Shown here: positions 5,723 to 30,088 of the stretch, in pieces
How the letters are laid out: each line of letters begins with the position of its first letter
Numbering within the stretch: position 1 is the stretch's first letter
Source of the DNA: Sphingobacterium humi
GTDB taxonomy: Bacteria > Bacteroidota > Bacteroidia > Sphingobacteriales > Sphingobacteriaceae
DNA: 64,000 bases
NCBI RefSeq assembly: GCF_009768885.1
Contig: NZ_WSQA01000014.1
Location: forward strand, 62,001-126,000
Direction: 5' to 3'
Made by a program: the position numbers and the translations under genes
Notes under the pieces: model-generated
Told to the model about the DNA's origin: nothing
The model's input: the letters and a program-made list of their open reading frames with translations, nothing else
Database searches by the model: none

Positions 5723-6169
5723 TTATTTCCACCAATAGTAATAATTGTGGTTGCCGTCATACTCAAATCCGCAACGTGGATATAATTTGTTGCCAATGTC
5801 GTTTGTTTTTTCGGTTTCGAGCATCAACCCGCAAGCTCCTGTTTCATCACACCATTGTTTTGCTCGGTCTATTAACGCTACCGAAAGTCCATTACCTCTG
5901 TAATCGGGTTGAACAAACAAATCACTCAATAACCATTGCTTCGCCAATTTGATGTAATGATAAAGTTTGTACAACTGAACAAATCCAACTGCTTTACCGT
6001 CTGCATATACGACAAAAATGTTTGATTGATCGTTGTCTAATCGTTCCTTAATAAACTGTTTGCATTTTTCGTAATCGTCTTTCTGACGGTAAAAAACCCG
6101 ATAGTGGTTAAATAATTCTGCTGTTGTGTCTAAATCGGTTAGACTTACTTTTTTGATGTTGAACTCCAT
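5723..6169 (-). CDS. GNAT-family N-acetyltransferase
   Basis: A 148-residue GCN5-related acetyltransferase using acetyl-CoA; the substrate is unknown. The acetyl-CoA loop is LFVQPDYRGNGLSVALI, close to the Q/RxxGxG/A consensus. It is preceded by VGFVQLYKLYHYIKLAKQWLLSDL and followed by LMLETEKTNDIGNKLYPRCGF (motif B: NKLYPRCGF). The length is that of a single complete GNAT domain. About 60 bases upstream is a 26-base element closely similar to one at the divergent MocR promoter, so the same regulator may control it. A second GNAT gene just upstream is decayed. Confidence 0.88.
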   Translation of the reverse strand: MEFNIKKVSLTDLDTTAELFNHYRVFYRQKDDYEKCKQFIKERLDNDQSNIFVVYADGKAVGFVQLYKLYHYIKLAKQWLLSDLFVQPDYRGNGLSVALIDRAKQWCDETGACGLMLETEKTNDIGNKLYPRCGFEYDGNHNYYYWWK

Positions 6170-23755: not shown

Positions 23756-24442
23756 TTAATTTTTTAGAAAAGCTTTAATATTCTGGTTGTCGCCATAGAT
23801 TACAATAATTTCACCTTCTTGCAATACAGTATCAGGTTTCGGAATTCCATGTAGAACTGTGGTAACAATCCTACTTTTTCCGATAAGAGATTCCCGTTCT
23901 GTTTTTTTGAGAATAGTCAATACTAGAATTTCATAGCGTTCTCGGAATCCAATTTGTTGTATGGTTAATCCTATGTGTTTTTTGGGAATTATAGCTTCCA
24001 CAATGCTATAGTTAGGATTTAATTCAAAGGAATCGACTAAGCCGCTAAGACAGAGTTTCTTAGACCAGCGTTCTGCGGTTTCTTCTTCGGGATGAACTAT
24101 TTCGGAAACTCCTATTGCATTGAGCACTTTCTCATGTAAACTGTTGACCGCGCGGCTAATTAGTCGTTTTACTTCAGCTTCTTTACATAGCGCGGTCACC
24201 ATAATGTTCGCCCCTTCGTTTTCCCCAATGGCCACAATGACTACGTCTGTGTTTTTCAAAGGAAGGGAATTAAAGGCAATAGGATCGGAAGCGTCGATAG
24301 AAATCGTGTGCGTAATGTGTTCCTTAAGGGCAGTGATGCGTTCATGTTTGATGTCTACACCAATAACTTCGTTTCCCTGGGCTGTGAGTTTTATAGCTAG
24401 CGAGGCGCCAAAATTTCCAAGTCCTATGATAATAAATTTCAT
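23756..24442 (-). CDS. trkA: TrkA/KtrA-type potassium channel regulatory subunit
   Basis: A 228-residue cytosolic RCK-domain protein that gates the TrkH channel. The N-terminal Rossmann domain begins IIIGLGNFGASLAIKL, with the GxGxxG nucleotide loop, acidic VIGVDIKHER at strand 2, and ASDPIAFNSLPL. The C-terminal TrkA_C domain starts near residue 140 (YSIVEAIIPKKHIGLTIQQI). The single RCK unit matches KtrA more than the doubled E. coli TrkA. It lies five bases downstream of trkH in the same operon. Confidence 0.92.
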   Translation of the reverse strand: MKFIIIGLGNFGASLAIKLTAQGNEVIGVDIKHERITALKEHITHTISIDASDPIAFNSLPLKNTDVVIVAIGENEGANIMVTALCKEAEVKRLISRAVNSLHEKVLNAIGVSEIVHPEEETAERWSKKLCLSGLVDSFELNPNYSIVEAIIPKKHIGLTIQQIGFRERYEILVLTILKKTERESLIGKSRIVTTVLHGIPKPDTVLQEGEIIVIYGDNQNIKAFLKN

Positions 24443-24446
24443 ATAA

Positions 24447-25823
24447 TTAATTTATGGTTAGTTCTTCCTTTGCGTACCGATAATTTGTAAACTTTACTTT
24501 TTTGAACAGTGCGATCATTATTGACAGCATCGTGACCCTTCCAATAAACATTAAAGCAATCAATATAACTTTACTCGCAGTAGAAAGTTTAAATGTTATT
24601 CCCAATGTAAGTCCCACTGTGCTGTAGGCTGAGAAGCATTCAAACGCAATTTGTAGTAGACTGAACTCTTTCTCGAATACGCTGATGAGCAAAATGCATA
24701 ATCCGATAATAAATAAAGAGAGAGTCATTGTGGCAAATGCACGTTTTATGGTAATTTCTGCAATTTCTCGTCTGAATATTTCCAATCTTTCTTTTCCACG
24801 GACCAAACTGAGAATGTTGAATACCGCTACTGCAAATGTACTAGTCTTAATTCCCCCACCTGTTGAATTCGGAGAGGCGCCTATCCACATTAAAAAGATA
24901 ATAAAAAGAATGCTATGTACTTGTAGGTGTGCAAAATCTATACTATTATACCCAGCAGTCCGTGGAGTACTAGCTGTAAATAATGCGGTTACCCATTGTC
25001 CAAATGTTCCATGTTCGTTGAATGCTCCTTGACTTTCAAAGAGCCAAAGCAATACCGTAGCGAACAATGTGATGCTCAGTGTTGTTATTAAGTTGATCTT
25101 ACTATTAATGTTGATTACCCATGGTTTGTGCGTAAATTGATTTTCTGTATATCGTTTTATAATTCTATTGATCAAATGCTTCAGGTAACGAATTAGGTTA
25201 ATTACAATTGGGAAACCCAGACCGCCCAGGATAAATAATGCAATTATGATTAACTGAAAAGGGTAATTGAAAAGGACGGACTTTTCTGCTAGTCCAAGAG
25301 GTAAAGTTGAGAATCCAGCATTACAAAAGGATGATATCGAGTGGAATAAACAAAAGAAGAGATGTTGTCCAAATCCCAAATGTCTGAATTCGGGTGTACA
25401 TAGATAAATTAATAGCGTGCCAGCAGCCTCAATCGAAAAGGATATGAGGATGATACGCTTTAGGAGTAGGAAGACCTCACCCAATTTTTCCGAATTCACC
25501 ATATCTTTACTCGCCAGTTGGTTTTCGTAGGAGGTACCGCCTTTAAAAAAATAGGCGAAATAGGAGGCAAACGTCAATATGCCTAATCCTCCGAGCTGGA
25601 TAAGTAACATAATGATTAATTTACCTAGTGGAGTAAATGCGGAGGCCGTGTCAACCACAATTAGTCCAGTGACACATACCGCACTTGTTGCTGTAAAGAG
25701 CGCATCAATCCAAGAGATAGGTACGGTATTTGACATAGGTAGGTATAACAGTAAGGTCCCTAGTAGAATTAGCAAAATAAAACTCCCAGCAAAAAGCTGG
25801 GCCGGGTTGTAGAATCTCTTCAA
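24447..25823 (-). CDS. trkH: TrkH/KtrB-family potassium uptake channel
   Basis: A 458-residue inner-membrane protein with about eight to ten helices and the TrkH pore loops, including TATSAVCVTGLIVVDT, SISSFCNAGFS, TASTPRTAGYNS and FSAYSTVGLTLG. It imports K+ on osmotic upshift together with the RCK subunit. The start is a TTG at 25823: an in-frame TGA lies only six codons upstream and no ATG intervenes. A -7-like TAACTTTG lies 17 bases ahead, so the leader is very short. It diverges from the glucosylglycerol operon. Confidence 0.92.
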   Translation of the reverse strand: MKRFYNPAQLFAGSFILLILLGTLLLYLPMSNTVPISWIDALFTATSAVCVTGLIVVDTASAFTPLGKLIIMLLIQLGGLGILTFASYFAYFFKGGTSYENQLASKDMVNSEKLGEVFLLLKRIILISFSIEAAGTLLIYLCTPEFRHLGFGQHLFFCLFHSISSFCNAGFSTLPLGLAEKSVLFNYPFQLIIIALFILGGLGFPIVINLIRYLKHLINRIIKRYTENQFTHKPWVININSKINLITTLSITLFATVLLWLFESQGAFNEHGTFGQWVTALFTASTPRTAGYNSIDFAHLQVHSILFIIFLMWIGASPNSTGGGIKTSTFAVAVFNILSLVRGKERLEIFRREIAEITIKRAFATMTLSLFIIGLCILLISVFEKEFSLLQIAFECFSAYSTVGLTLGITFKLSTASKVILIALMFIGRVTMLSIMIALFKKVKFTNYRYAKEELTIN

Positions 25824-25839
25824 ATCTCTTCGGTTTTTT

Positions 25840-25871
25840 CAAAGTTATAAAATCGTGCTGAATTCTCTAAA
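25840..25871 (-). promoter_or_regulatory. Promoter of trkH-trkA
   Basis: On the minus strand, TTTA (25871-25868), 20 bases, then TAACTTTG (25847-25840) fits the Bacteroidota pattern TTTG-N19/21-TAnnTTTG with one change in the upstream box. The predicted start point lies only about ten bases before the TTG start codon. Confidence 0.6.
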
Positions 25872-25892
25872 GCGCTTTCAATTATAGGTGAA

Positions 25893-25924
25893 TTTGCTTA
25901 TTAGTTTATTTTTACCTATCTTTG
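25893..25924 (+). promoter_or_regulatory. Promoter of the gpsA-ggp-mscS operon
   Basis: TTTG (25893-25896), a 20-base spacer and TATCTTTG (25917-25924) match the Bacteroidota vegetative consensus fully. The expected transcript has a leader of about 60 bases before the TTG start of gpsA at 25990. Confidence 0.75.
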
Positions 25925-25989
25925 TTGCTCATTAATTATATAACAGCAGAATTCGAACCTATATTCTGCAAAAAAAAATCCCCCAAAGT

Positions 25990-26979
25990 TTGATTGAAGT
26001 AAGTGTTGTTGGTGGTGGAAGTTGGGCTACTGCTTTAGTAAAAATATTAACCGAAAATAAGATCCCAACGAATTGGTATCTGAGAAGAAATGAGCAGGTC
26101 AAGCATATCAAAGAAAAAGGAAGTAATCCTAGTTATCTTCCGCAAGTGCGTCTTAATCCTTTATTTATTTTTCCCAGCGATAATCTGTTGGAAGTGATTG
26201 AGCGGGGGCAGATTGTCATTTTTGCCGTTCCTAGCGCAGCGATACAAGCGGTTTGTAATGAGCTTGACAGTTCTCTTTTTACAAATAAAATGGTTTTATC
26301 CGCGATGAAAGGAACTGTTGGCGCGAATAATGAAGTTCCGAGCAGTTTTATAAGCAGAATATTGAATATACCAGCGACTCAAATCGCGACAATTGCTGGA
26401 CCATGTCATTCGGAAGAGATTGCAGCAAGCAAACTAACCTACCTAAGCTTGTCTTGTACAAACCAGGATACGGTCGATAGGTTAAGCGTTTTATTTAGAA
26501 GACCATACATCAAAGTTTGTGGTAACGACGACCCAATGGGAGTTGGCTATGCCTCTATCTATAAAAATGTATTGGGCATCGCTAGTGGTATGGCCACAGG
26601 TTTAGGGTATGGAGATAACTTCATGGCTGTACTTGTTAGCAATGCTTTGTTCGAAATGCAAAATATCTTAGCATCGACACCCGCTGAGCAAAGAGAAATG
26701 TTAAATTCTACTTACGCTGGTGATTTGTTGGTTACGGGATATTCGAATAACAGTCGAAATCGTCGTTTTGGCGAATTAATAGCCCAAGGGCACTCGGCGG
26801 AAATAGCAGTGAATAAATTAGGGATGGTCGCTGAAGGCTATCATGCAACTCAAGGACTTTTTGGTTATGCGAATGAAAAGGAATTGAATCTACCTATTTT
26901 GACCACTGTCTATCGAATACTTTTTGGAAAAGAATCAATAGAAACAGGGTTTAAAAAATTGGAGGAAAAATTAATATAA
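25990..26979 (+). CDS. gpsA: NAD(P)-dependent glycerol-3-phosphate dehydrogenase
   Basis: A 329-residue cytosolic enzyme converting dihydroxyacetone phosphate to sn-glycerol-3-phosphate. The nucleotide loop is VSVVGGGSWATALVKIL. Further GpsA features are IFAVPSAAIQAV, LSAMKGTVG, the TIAGPCHSEEIAA segment, and the catalytic lysine in ASIYKNVLGIASGMA. The start is TTG at 25990, giving MIEVSVVGG; no ATG fits. Its last base is shared with the ATG of the phosphatase gene (TAATG). Placement ahead of ggpP/ggpS suggests it supplies glycerol-3-phosphate for glucosylglycerol rather than mainly for phospholipids. Confidence 0.9.
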   Translation: MIEVSVVGGGSWATALVKILTENKIPTNWYLRRNEQVKHIKEKGSNPSYLPQVRLNPLFIFPSDNLLEVIERGQIVIFAVPSAAIQAVCNELDSSLFTNKMVLSAMKGTVGANNEVPSSFISRILNIPATQIATIAGPCHSEEIAASKLTYLSLSCTNQDTVDRLSVLFRRPYIKVCGNDDPMGVGYASIYKNVLGIASGMATGLGYGDNFMAVLVSNALFEMQNILASTPAEQREMLNSTYAGDLLVTGYSNNSRNRRFGELIAQGHSAEIAVNKLGMVAEGYHATQGLFGYANEKELNLPILTTVYRILFGKESIETGFKKLEEKLI

Positions 26980-27776
26980 TGTTATTAGCTACAGATTTAG
27001 ATGGGACATTCTTAGGCGGAACAATGGATGATCGCCTAAAGCTCTACCAGATTATTAAAGAAAATAAGGTTATTCAATTGGTTTTTGTAACCGGAAGAGG
27101 ACTAGAATCGGTCATTCCGCTGTTAAATGATCCTACGATTCCAATGCCGCAATATATAATTGCGGATGTAGGCGCAACGGTATGTGACGGTGCCACACTC
27201 ACTGCAATTGACGAGATCCAGCATGAGATTGAACGTAATTGGCCATCGGTATATGAACTTCAGGAAGCATTTTCAGCGGTTCCCAGTTTGGTGTATCAAG
27301 GTGTTCCTCAGCAACGTCGTTGTTCGTATTACTACGATGAAAATACCAATCTAGCTAAGGTGCACGCTATTGCAGAACAAAAAGGTTGTGATGTGATTAC
27401 CTCTGTGGATAAATATTTGGATATTCTTCCTAAGGGGGTGAATAAAGGAAGTACACTGAAAAAGTTAGTAGCTCATTTGGAGGTCACCGCTGGCGAAGTG
27501 TTAGTCGCAGGAGATACATTAAATGACCTTTCATTGTTTCAAACCGGATATCAAGGTGTTGCCGTAGGGCAGTCCGAAATTGCTCTCCTAGAGGCGACTG
27601 AAGGTCTTTCGAATGTATATCAGGCAGATCGTTTAGGGGCGGGGGGCATAATTGAAAGTATGGAGACCTACGAAAGCTTTGCTCCCTACCTGAATAATTT
27701 TACGGAAGAACCACTACCTCAGCAGTCTTCTAAGGAGCGACAGCTAGTAATGGTTTACCATCGGCTTCCTTACTAA
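26979..27776 (+). CDS. HAD-IIB phosphatase domain of a split GgpPS (glucosylglycerol-phosphate phosphatase)
   Basis: A 265-residue product. Residues 1-245 are a HAD-IIB phosphatase with motif I LLATDLDGTFLGG, motif II FVTGRG, motif III lysine in KGVNKGSTLKKL and motif IV AGDTLNDLSLF, as in sucrose-phosphate phosphatase. The last residues, QLVMVYHRLPY, do not belong to HAD: they are the first beta strand of a GT20 synthase (compare the 'LYHREPY' start of cyanobacterial GgpS). The TAA at 27774-27776 is in frame with the next gene, whose ATG is two codons on. Without it a 750-residue fusion would result. It would dephosphorylate glucosylglycerol-phosphate. Confidence 0.85.
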   Translation: MLLATDLDGTFLGGTMDDRLKLYQIIKENKVIQLVFVTGRGLESVIPLLNDPTIPMPQYIIADVGATVCDGATLTAIDEIQHEIERNWPSVYELQEAFSAVPSLVYQGVPQQRRCSYYYDENTNLAKVHAIAEQKGCDVITSVDKYLDILPKGVNKGSTLKKLVAHLEVTAGEVLVAGDTLNDLSLFQTGYQGVAVGQSEIALLEATEGLSNVYQADRLGAGGIIESMETYESFAPYLNNFTEEPLPQQSSKERQLVMVYHRLPY

Positions 27777-27782
27777 CGTGTT

Positions 27783-29231
27783 ATGGACGACGGTAAGATT
27801 AAGCAAGTTCCTCCGCAAAGCCCCAATGGTATTATTCCTTCTTTATTAGGGCTTTTTGAAAAGGGTAGACCGGGCATTTGGATTGGTGAGGAAGTTGATT
27901 TAGGGAATGGAGATAAGGATATGAGGCAAAAAGTTGATGTCGATAAATTTCCTAACCTTGATGTTTCGGCTATCTCACTTTCCCAAAAAGACATTGATAA
28001 ATTTTATAGAGTATTCTCTAAGGAGGCATTTTGGCCGACAATTTTTTCTTTTGTCGATAAGGCAAAATTTAATCATCTGGATTGGCAACATTATTTAAAA
28101 ATTAATAAGCTATTTGCGGCACGGATAGCACGGGAGGCCGAACCGGAAGCGTTAGTTTGGATTCACGAATATAATCTTTGGATGGTTCCTTCATTCTTGA
28201 AAATGATGCGCCCGGATCTCAAAATCGGCTTTTTCCACCATACAGCTTTTCCTGCGGCGGATATTTTTAATACTATTCCGTGGCGACGGGAGATTATAGG
28301 AAGCTTGTTAATGTGTGATTTTATTAGTTTTCATATCCCAAGGTATGTTGAAAATTTTATTGATGTGTTGCGCAGTCACACTCCGTTTGAGCGCCTGAAA
28401 ACAGTCAATGTATCTAAACACTTTCTTACCTATAGTATGGCTCTAGGTGTCGAAGAGATGACCAAAATGATTTCTGTGGAAGGACGAACGATTCGATTGG
28501 GGGCACAACCAGTTGGCGTTAATTATGAGTTGATTGATAGTTTGATAGCTAAAAAAGAGATCGCACAGCGAATCGAAACATACAGAGTGGAGGCAGCCCG
28601 TAAAGATATGAAACGTATTGTATCTATCGAAAGAATGGACTACGTGAAGGGGCCGTTAGAAAAGGTATTGGCGTTCGGGGAATTTTTGAAGGAATACCCA
28701 GAATTTCGGGGCAAGGTCGAACTAATTAACGTCTGTACTCCACCATCGAAGGGTATGCGTATTTATGATAAAATCAGGGATCAAGTTAATCAGGCTGTGA
28801 GAGAAATCAATGGTAAGTACGCTACTTTGGATTGGACTCCAATACAATATTTCTTCCAAGCACTCCCCTTTGAAGAGGTTCTTATTCAATATGCGCTGGC
28901 CGATGTCGCATGGATTACGCCGCTACGCGATGGACTTAATCTGGTTTCCAAAGAGTTTGTGGCAACACAAGGCATCTTGAACCAGTCTGGTGTATTAGTG
29001 CTTTCGGAATTTGCTGGCGCATCGGTCGAACTACCGTATTGTGTTCCAACAAATCCATATGATCGCCGGAGCATGATTGAATCTTTACATCAAGCTCTTA
29101 CCATGCAAGGAGATGAGGCACGTTTGCGAATCAAAAGGTCCCTAGAACAAATTAAATATTATGACATTCATTATTGGGGGGAGGATTTTGTCAGAGAACT
29201 GGAGGAGAGTAATTTCACTAACGAAGTATAA
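27783..29231 (+). CDS. ggpS: Glucosylglycerol-phosphate synthase (GT20), N-terminally cut
   Basis: A 482-residue GT20 glycosyltransferase that joins glucose from a nucleotide sugar (ADP-glucose in cyanobacteria) to glycerol-3-phosphate. Hallmarks are SPNGIIPSLLGLF, WIHEYNLWMVP, FFHHTAFPAADIFNTIPWR, RYVENFIDVLRSH, IERMDYVKG, ITPLRDGLNLVSKEFV and LSEFAGASVELP. These fit GgpS better than trehalose-phosphate synthase. The first beta strand is encoded before the TAA that ends the preceding gene in the same frame, so translation from this ATG lacks it. Either a split enzyme works in two pieces, readthrough occurs, or the gene is freshly inactivated. Eleven bases separate it from mscS. Confidence 0.88.
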   Translation: MDDGKIKQVPPQSPNGIIPSLLGLFEKGRPGIWIGEEVDLGNGDKDMRQKVDVDKFPNLDVSAISLSQKDIDKFYRVFSKEAFWPTIFSFVDKAKFNHLDWQHYLKINKLFAARIAREAEPEALVWIHEYNLWMVPSFLKMMRPDLKIGFFHHTAFPAADIFNTIPWRREIIGSLLMCDFISFHIPRYVENFIDVLRSHTPFERLKTVNVSKHFLTYSMALGVEEMTKMISVEGRTIRLGAQPVGVNYELIDSLIAKKEIAQRIETYRVEAARKDMKRIVSIERMDYVKGPLEKVLAFGEFLKEYPEFRGKVELINVCTPPSKGMRIYDKIRDQVNQAVREINGKYATLDWTPIQYFFQALPFEEVLIQYALADVAWITPLRDGLNLVSKEFVATQGILNQSGVLVLSEFAGASVELPYCVPTNPYDRRSMIESLHQALTMQGDEARLRIKRSLEQIKYYDIHYWGEDFVRELEESNFTNEV

Positions 29232-29242
29232 AATAAAAACAC

Positions 29243-30088
29243 ATGAAAGTAGAACAATTGGAAAACGTAGAAGGGAAAATCGAGAAATTTATTGATAGCG
29301 CTATTGCATATGCTCCCATATTAATCAGTTCATTGGTGTCAGCAGCACTGGTACTATTCCTGGGACTATGGTTGATTCGTATAGTTCGAAAACTAGTGGA
29401 TCGGATCTTTGTAAAAAGAGATATTGAACCGAGTATTCGGACATTTCTTGGTAACTTGATTAATTGGATTCTAAAAGTAATGCTCTTTATTGTGGTCGTT
29501 AGCCAATTGGGGGTGCAAACTTCCACGTTTATCGCGGTGATTGGTGCGGCCGGCTTAGCAATAGGCATGTCTTTACAAGGGTCATTGTCTAATTTTGCTG
29601 GCGGGGTATTGATTTTACTATTCAAACCATTTCGAGTAGGTGACTATATATCCTCTTCTACGGGGGTAGATGGTACGGTTAAAATTATCGATATTTTTAA
29701 TACCAAACTCGTGACACCGCAAAATCAATTGGTCATCATCCCTAATGGAGAGCTTTCGAACAGTAATATTACCAACTATACCGAACTGGGGGGCCGTAGA
29801 ACTTGGTTTGATATCGGTATTTCGTATGATGCAGATCTGCGCATGGCCAAATCAATCTTACTGAAATGTATTAGTGATAATGAACATGCATTTTCGGAGC
29901 CCGCTCCTGAAGTGGTGGTGACGACTCTGGGTGATAGTTCAATTACTCTATCAATTCGAGTATCCACTAATAATGAAAATTTCTGGACTATGCAGGAGCA
30001 ACTTCTTATTAGCTGTAAAGAAGCTCTTGATAATGCTGGTATTGAAATACCATTTCCGCAAATGGATTTCCATATTAAGAAGAATTGA
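29243..30088 (+). CDS. mscS: Small-conductance mechanosensitive channel MscS
   Basis: A 281-residue inner-membrane channel of standard MscS size. Three helices lie near residues 22-45, 65-88 and 92-125. The pore helix is glycine/alanine-rich: FIAVIGAAGLAIGMSLQGSL, followed by SNFAGGVLILLFKPFRVGDYI. The beta domain contains TKLVTPQNQLVIIPNGELSN. It jettisons solutes when turgor rises. As last gene of the glucosylglycerol operon it would allow release of the solute on dilution. It ends in an AT-rich region without a clear GC-rich terminator. Confidence 0.94.
   Translation: MKVEQLENVEGKIEKFIDSAIAYAPILISSLVSAALVLFLGLWLIRIVRKLVDRIFVKRDIEPSIRTFLGNLINWILKVMLFIVVVSQLGVQTSTFIAVIGAAGLAIGMSLQGSLSNFAGGVLILLFKPFRVGDYISSSTGVDGTVKIIDIFNTKLVTPQNQLVIIPNGELSNSNITNYTELGGRRTWFDIGISYDADLRMAKSILLKCISDNEHAFSEPAPEVVVTTLGDSSITLSIRVSTNNENFWTMQEQLLISCKEALDNAGIEIPFPQMDFHIKKN

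Follow-up and report, generated by a model that had tools for sequence, protein, structure and literature searches.

Fused glucosylglycerol-phosphate phosphatase-synthases (GgpPS), two-in-one enzymes that make glucosylglycerol, a sugar that protects cells against salt, are known from Stenotrophomonas rhizophila, Pseudomonas mendocina, Azotobacter vinelandii, and Marinobacter adhaerens (PMC10873239), in agreement with the first-pass annotation of the DNA analysed here, which had named Stenotrophomonas and Azotobacter as sources of such fusions. The window, a stretch of 64,000 nucleotides (nt) from the draft genome of Sphingobacterium humi (G000, 4.69 Mb in 32 contigs; C6:62001-126000), carried a gene of this type at positions 26979-29231 of the forward strand, which read as a single frame of 751 codons including its own terminal stop, with one internal TAA at 27774-27776. 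As far as their description in PMC10873239 allows comparison, the proteobacterial enzymes resembled those of the window's relatives in having an N-terminal phosphatase and a C-terminal synthase encoded by one frame, whereas in the window this frame was interrupted by the TAA and adjoined by gpsA, as opposed to the ggp phosphorylase gene in Marinobacter.

Organization of the interrupted frame

The two open reading frames (ORFs), of 265 and 482 amino acids (aa), lay in one frame and were separated by the TAA followed by CGT GTT ATG, position for position as the first-pass annotation had proposed. A HAD/S6PP phosphatase domain, the N-terminal part expected of a fused GgpPS, spanned the first 231 residues (PF05116). 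The upstream piece was similar to the sucrose-phosphatase 1s2o (E 1.8e-13), and residues 1-236 of the modelled read-through protein (36 sequences; mean predicted local distance difference test score, pLDDT, 82.9) could be superimposed on it with a Z score of 27.9 and a root-mean-square deviation (rmsd) of 2.4 over 230 residues. The final 12 sense codons of this piece belonged to the beginning of the synthase domain. The window gene is an interrupted copy of a fused GgpPS gene and, as sequenced, falls outside the fused-enzyme family, since the TAA keeps the two domains from sharing one uninterrupted ORF, as they do in the relatives. It is most likely a very recently broken copy of an ordinary enzyme gene, or a sequence error in one, and not a new kind of gene; fusions of this type have already been described in other bacteria. 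What is newly seen is this instance of breakage by a young stop codon.

Position of the stop within the synthase domain

The piece past the stop scored 559.9 bits against the glucosylglycerol-phosphate synthase profile TIGR02398, below its cut-off of 569 bits, whereas the synthase with the stop read through scored 576.1 bits and the whole read-through protein 574.2 bits, both above it. Reading through also moved the start of the match from profile position 14 to position 1. Because the score was raised and the match lengthened, the QLVMVYHRLPY tail of the phosphatase piece was assigned to the synthase and not to the HAD domain, in keeping with the first-pass annotation. The segment VMVYHRLPY aligned with the first strand of Tps1-type enzymes, and Y260, H261, R262, and P264 were invariant in 36 of 36 alignment rows, which comprised the window and 35 of 61 full-length relatives.

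The model placed strands at residues 256-262 and 266-270. The stop, at residue 266 and the 13th residue of the synthase domain, thus marked the boundary of synthase strands one and two, with the first of them (residues 254-265, RQLVMVYHRLPY) stranded on the phosphatase piece. Model residue 254 was equivalent to residue 1 of Escherichia coli OtsA in the fold alignment (1uqu; Z 40.9, rmsd 2.2, 450 residues). From the end points of this alignment, together with the sequence alignment, Arg262 (codon 27762-27764) is predicted to correspond to OtsA Arg9, which PMC1769515 describes as a glucose 6-phosphate-binding residue. Translation restarting at the ATG 6 nt past the stop would give a synthase that lacks both the first core strand and Arg262.

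The synthase resembled OtsA (1gz5, 1uqu) in its GT20 GT-B fold, with Z scores of 40.7-40.9 and rmsd values of 2.2-2.5 over 450-454 residues at 30% identity. It differed from OtsA in scoring at best 395.8 bits, read through, against the OtsA profile TIGR02400 (cut-off 564.85), and a different acceptor is expected.

The corresponding codon in relatives

A search with TIGR02398 at E 1e-120 matched 62 of 399 Sphingobacteriaceae genomes at 63 places. With the window's own place set aside, the open frames had 746-798 codons at 61 of these places and 500 codons at the last one (G263, which scored below the cut-off); only in the window genome, 1 of the 62, did a stop fall inside the match. Within the genus, the phosphatase piece matched 51 of 93 genomes, two of them weakly, so that 44 had no strong match. 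The 49 genomes with a strong match held 50 places: one is the frame of the window, 47 are open frames of 746-772 codons, and the remaining two run off contig ends. Since the relatives have a single uninterrupted frame of about 750 codons here, the fused frame is not a chance juxtaposition. Relatives with two well-separated genes and the YHRLPY strand in neither, the outcome that would have spoken against a split fusion, were looked for and not seen; the relatives were unsplit, and the strand was part of the synthase.

A contig scan gave 66 loci, 64 of them with the YHR motif; the other two (L094 and L095, methanogen metagenome-assembled genomes, MAGs, by title) also had no N-terminal phosphatase. 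At the position of the stop, the 64 loci had GAA (41), GAG (11), GAC (7), or GAT (5), that is, Glu in 52 and Asp in 12. Among the seven nearest relatives the codon was GAA in six (L098-L101, L103, and L104) and GAG in L102. The alignment with related genomes therefore bore out the suggestion that TAA had replaced a codon for an acidic residue such as GAA, and showed TAA to be unique to the window among the genomes examined. The YHRLPY tail was unchanged in the window. A Met codon occurred at the position of the downstream ATG in 7 of the 64 loci; the ATG is therefore older than the stop and was not created together with the TAA.

The orthologues of S. mizutaii (L032/G029), S. cellulitidis (L033), and S. 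endophyticum (L034), all with gpsA upstream as in the window, were 91% identical to the window's gene over the synthase and 77-80% identical over the phosphatase. Unlike the window, they had uninterrupted frames of 758-772 codons with GAA at the stop position.

A second internal TAA was observed in a Chitinophagaceae MAG (G422), where the fused GgpPS at L089:5197-7455 (synthase covered by G422:C325:5261-6721) had an in-frame TAA at 6031-6033 (RVAP*SPNGII) with intact flanking frames. It lay 14 codons past the window's stop position, in a contig of coverage 4.4 according to its title, and the position was occupied by Lys in 4 of 6 relatives compared. Mean nonsynonymous divergence (dN) of the L089 synthase to nine relatives was 0.200, compared with 0.197 for L078, 0.123-0.163 for most others, and 0.325 for L088, the highest. 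This TAA is independent of the window's stop and a minor curiosity. Among 394 genomes of the same family 35 matched, and two were flagged with a TAA, G422 and G630; G630 was rejected as an interrupted relative, its TAA being the natural terminal stop.

Selection on the frame and age of the stop

For the synthase, the ratio of nonsynonymous to synonymous divergence (dN/dS) was 0.039-0.050 when the window was compared with its five nearest relatives and 0.043-0.079 when these were compared with one another; comparisons with G080 and CZ2 were left out because synonymous sites were saturated. Six overlapping, non-independent three-taxon comparisons all showed no excess of dN on the window branch: the differences ranged from -0.0134 to -0.0011, and the upper 95% bound was at most 0.0138. 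By a rough estimate, given about 0.5 synonymous changes per site on this branch, the synthase could have drifted neutrally over at most the latest 3% or so of it. With the frame past the stop constrained and no acceleration on the branch, the stop is therefore very young, or not in the organism (an error), or tolerated.

For relaxed selection on the phosphatase the picture was mixed. Excess dN on the window branch was found in one of six comparisons (0.0368; S. endophyticum as sister, S. mizutaii as outgroup; interval 0.0069-0.0624); the other five intervals included zero, and the two with G080 as outgroup pointed the opposite way. The control gene, gpsA, likewise showed an excess in one of six (0.0302, interval 0.0018-0.0612).

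Possible origins of the stop

The best explanation, and in our view probably the right one, is a recent nonsense mutation in an ordinary fused GgpPS gene that removes glucosylglycerol synthesis. Isolated nonsense mutations of recent origin are to be expected in bacteria. An ordinary ggpPS, the second gene of a gpsA-ggpPS pair, would very recently have gained the stop, most likely as GAA to TAA by one G-to-T change at the 13th residue of the synthase domain. Translation would yield the whole phosphatase domain, followed by 12 synthase residues of no use, and the synthase would be lost, being either untranslated or restarted without its first core strand and acceptor-binding Arg. The strain would then make no glucosylglycerol by the GgpPS route and may lean on other solutes such as trehalose. 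That the gene is dispensable is supported by the 44 genus genomes with no strong phosphatase match and by an intact OtsA-OtsB fusion gene elsewhere in the genome. We infer a genuine stop in the organism and the absence of any functional synthase. Four points weigh against this explanation: the frame past the stop shows no decay, so that a real loss fits only if very young; the TAA base is known from one draft assembly; some translation could plausibly restart at the ATG 6 nt past the stop; and the TAA 14 codons on in an unrelated MAG is a weak hint that this hinge may tolerate breaks. Among the four origins listed in the first-pass annotation, recent inactivation is favoured and sequence error comes second; readthrough gained no positive support, and assembly of two pieces is improbable.

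A base-calling or assembly error in the 32-contig draft, with an intact gene and a normal GgpPS in the organism, is unlikely, yet it is the strongest competitor. It would account for a unique stop followed by a frame as constrained as in intact relatives, and the sole comparable internal stop found, that of G422, sits in a contig of low coverage. It would need a substitution in ordinary sequence, however, and not a homopolymer indel, and the sampled parts of the genome were clean: surveyed over the matched stretch only, 129 of 130 matches to the TonB plug and all 61 ABC matches had no stop. The sole plug match with a TAA (C8:74662-74772) lay in a TonB-receptor fragment with many upstream stops. 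These stop-free matches argue against poor assembly and against a reassigned TAA, while a single base is not verifiable by them. Neighbouring orthologous ORFs were also compared, 26 with G078 and 7 with G094 in overlapping sets of poor synteny, and in the three others that were flagged the stops lay before the likely start codons.

The receptor fragment itself was 577 aa long (G000:C8:72943-74676; L173:944-2677, minus strand), its 5' part decayed by many stops. Another plug match, at G000:C11:43351-43590 (in L174), lay in an open frame that was unusually short (384 codons) and is possibly a further fragment. A change of the genetic code, with TAA reassigned, was rejected, as 190 of the 191 domain matches surveyed were stop-free and the exception was the 5'-decayed remnant.

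It is improbable that the stop and the ATG divide the enzyme into two chains, the phosphatase chain docking the first strand and Arg262 onto a restarted synthase chain and so restoring activity. The in-frame ATG directly past the stop, the location of the stop at a strand edge in the model, the constrained appearance of both halves, the overlap of gpsA and ggpP as TAATG, and the second TAA of G422 would all be consistent with such an arrangement. No relative was split here, however, the exception to the 746-798-codon frames being the 500-codon frame already mentioned; a conserved signal was not found, and the ATG predates the stop. Recency accounts for the constraint equally well, and complementation of a strand between chains is a hypothetical requirement. 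More doubtful still is a natural split GgpPS in which the strand and Arg donated between chains make the stop tolerated, and in which the G422 TAA would be a second break of the hinge.

Programmed or suppressor-driven readthrough of the TAA to give the fused protein appears very improbable. The frame was constrained on either side of the stop, and the base after it was C; a C following a stop codon is a weak termination context. Against this, no tRNA with a stop anticodon was found by ARAGORN among 45 Rfam tRNA matches, all with sense anticodons, in a list that may be incomplete (150 of 312 candidates were scored, and those read included no tRNA-Ile; the runs on 25 of 30 loci and 10 of 14 tRNA stretches together covered all 45). 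No stable RNA structure was predicted in the 100 nt after the stop, which were less stable than shuffled sequences (z +1.45). A stop shared by relatives, together with a decoding signal or a suppressor tRNA, would mark a readthrough gene, and none of these was observed; a stop at this place occurred in none of the 64 loci, and no stop in the synthase matches of the 61 other family genomes. Promoter-like and terminator-like sites were at the level of shuffled sequence (13 versus 13.9 and 4 versus 3.4, respectively). An old split into separate phosphatase and synthase genes of this lineage is hardly credible, for although there are two ORFs with a possible start codon for each, the tail and the missing strand would have diverged whereas YHRLPY is preserved without change, the close relatives are all unsplit, and by eye the ATG was preceded by neither a spacer nor, in its immediate vicinity, an evident ribosome-binding site.

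Neighbouring genes

The coordinates of ggpPS and of the genes around it are given in Table 1. The TAA of the gpsA-like gene overlapped the ATG of the phosphatase (TAATG), and the genome contained one further PF07479 match besides this gene, which likely supplies the acceptor for GgpPS. Of 64 loci that include the start of the phosphatase, 34 had a gpsA match directly upstream of ggpPS. The mscS gene adjoined ggpPS in two of the 64 (L034 and L035), and also in G078 and G080. TrkA/TrkH, gpsA, ggpPS, and MscS genes thus stood together at 23756-30088 of the window; in relatives only gpsA was regular beside ggpPS, TrkA/TrkH and MscS being rare. Beside ggpPS in G078 (L100:5810-7843), matches to the trkA homologue fell in two frames, suggestive of a frameshift, and one stop lay within the match to trkH.

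Table 1. Features of the interrupted ggpPS frame and of its neighbours in the window
Feature	Coordinates	Strand	Basis or remark
Phosphatase piece (ggpP part, HAD/S6PP, 265 aa), up to in-frame TAA	26979..27776	+	PF05116 E 6.3e-47; 1s2o
First GT20 synthase strand (residues 254-265), on phosphatase piece	27738..27773	+	TIGR02398 extension, alignment, model
In-frame TAA, at the place of a Glu or Asp codon of the relatives	27774..27776	+	Window sequence and alignment of relatives
Synthase piece (ggpS part, GT20, 482 aa), from ATG 6 nt past stop	27783..29231	+	PF00982 E 2.4e-124
gpsA-like NAD-dependent glycerol-3-phosphate dehydrogenase	25990..26979	+	PF07479 match
MscS-type mechanosensitive channel, 11 nt past ggpPS	29243..30088	+	Associated osmotic gene, not part of enzyme
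TrkA/TrkH-type potassium uptake pair, divergent	23756..25823	-	Neighbouring osmotic genes; also beside ggpPS in G078

Implications for glucosylglycerol synthesis in Sphingobacterium

An intact 735-aa OtsA-OtsB fusion (GT20 plus trehalose-phosphatase) was encoded at G000:C12:859-4877 (L156), and another osmolyte route therefore remains. It was followed in the same locus by a 600-aa ORF which, by eye, resembled a GH15-type glucan hydrolase.

No publication on GgpPS in Sphingobacterium was found in literature searches limited to titles and the openings of abstracts, and glucosylglycerol as the product in this genus rests on the family assignment. The comparison makes visible the fused gpsA-ggpPS arrangement of Sphingobacterium. 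If the stop is real, it would represent a fresh loss of glucosylglycerol synthesis, seen before the gene has decayed, in a genus in which ggpPS is patchy (strong phosphatase match in 49 of 93 genomes).

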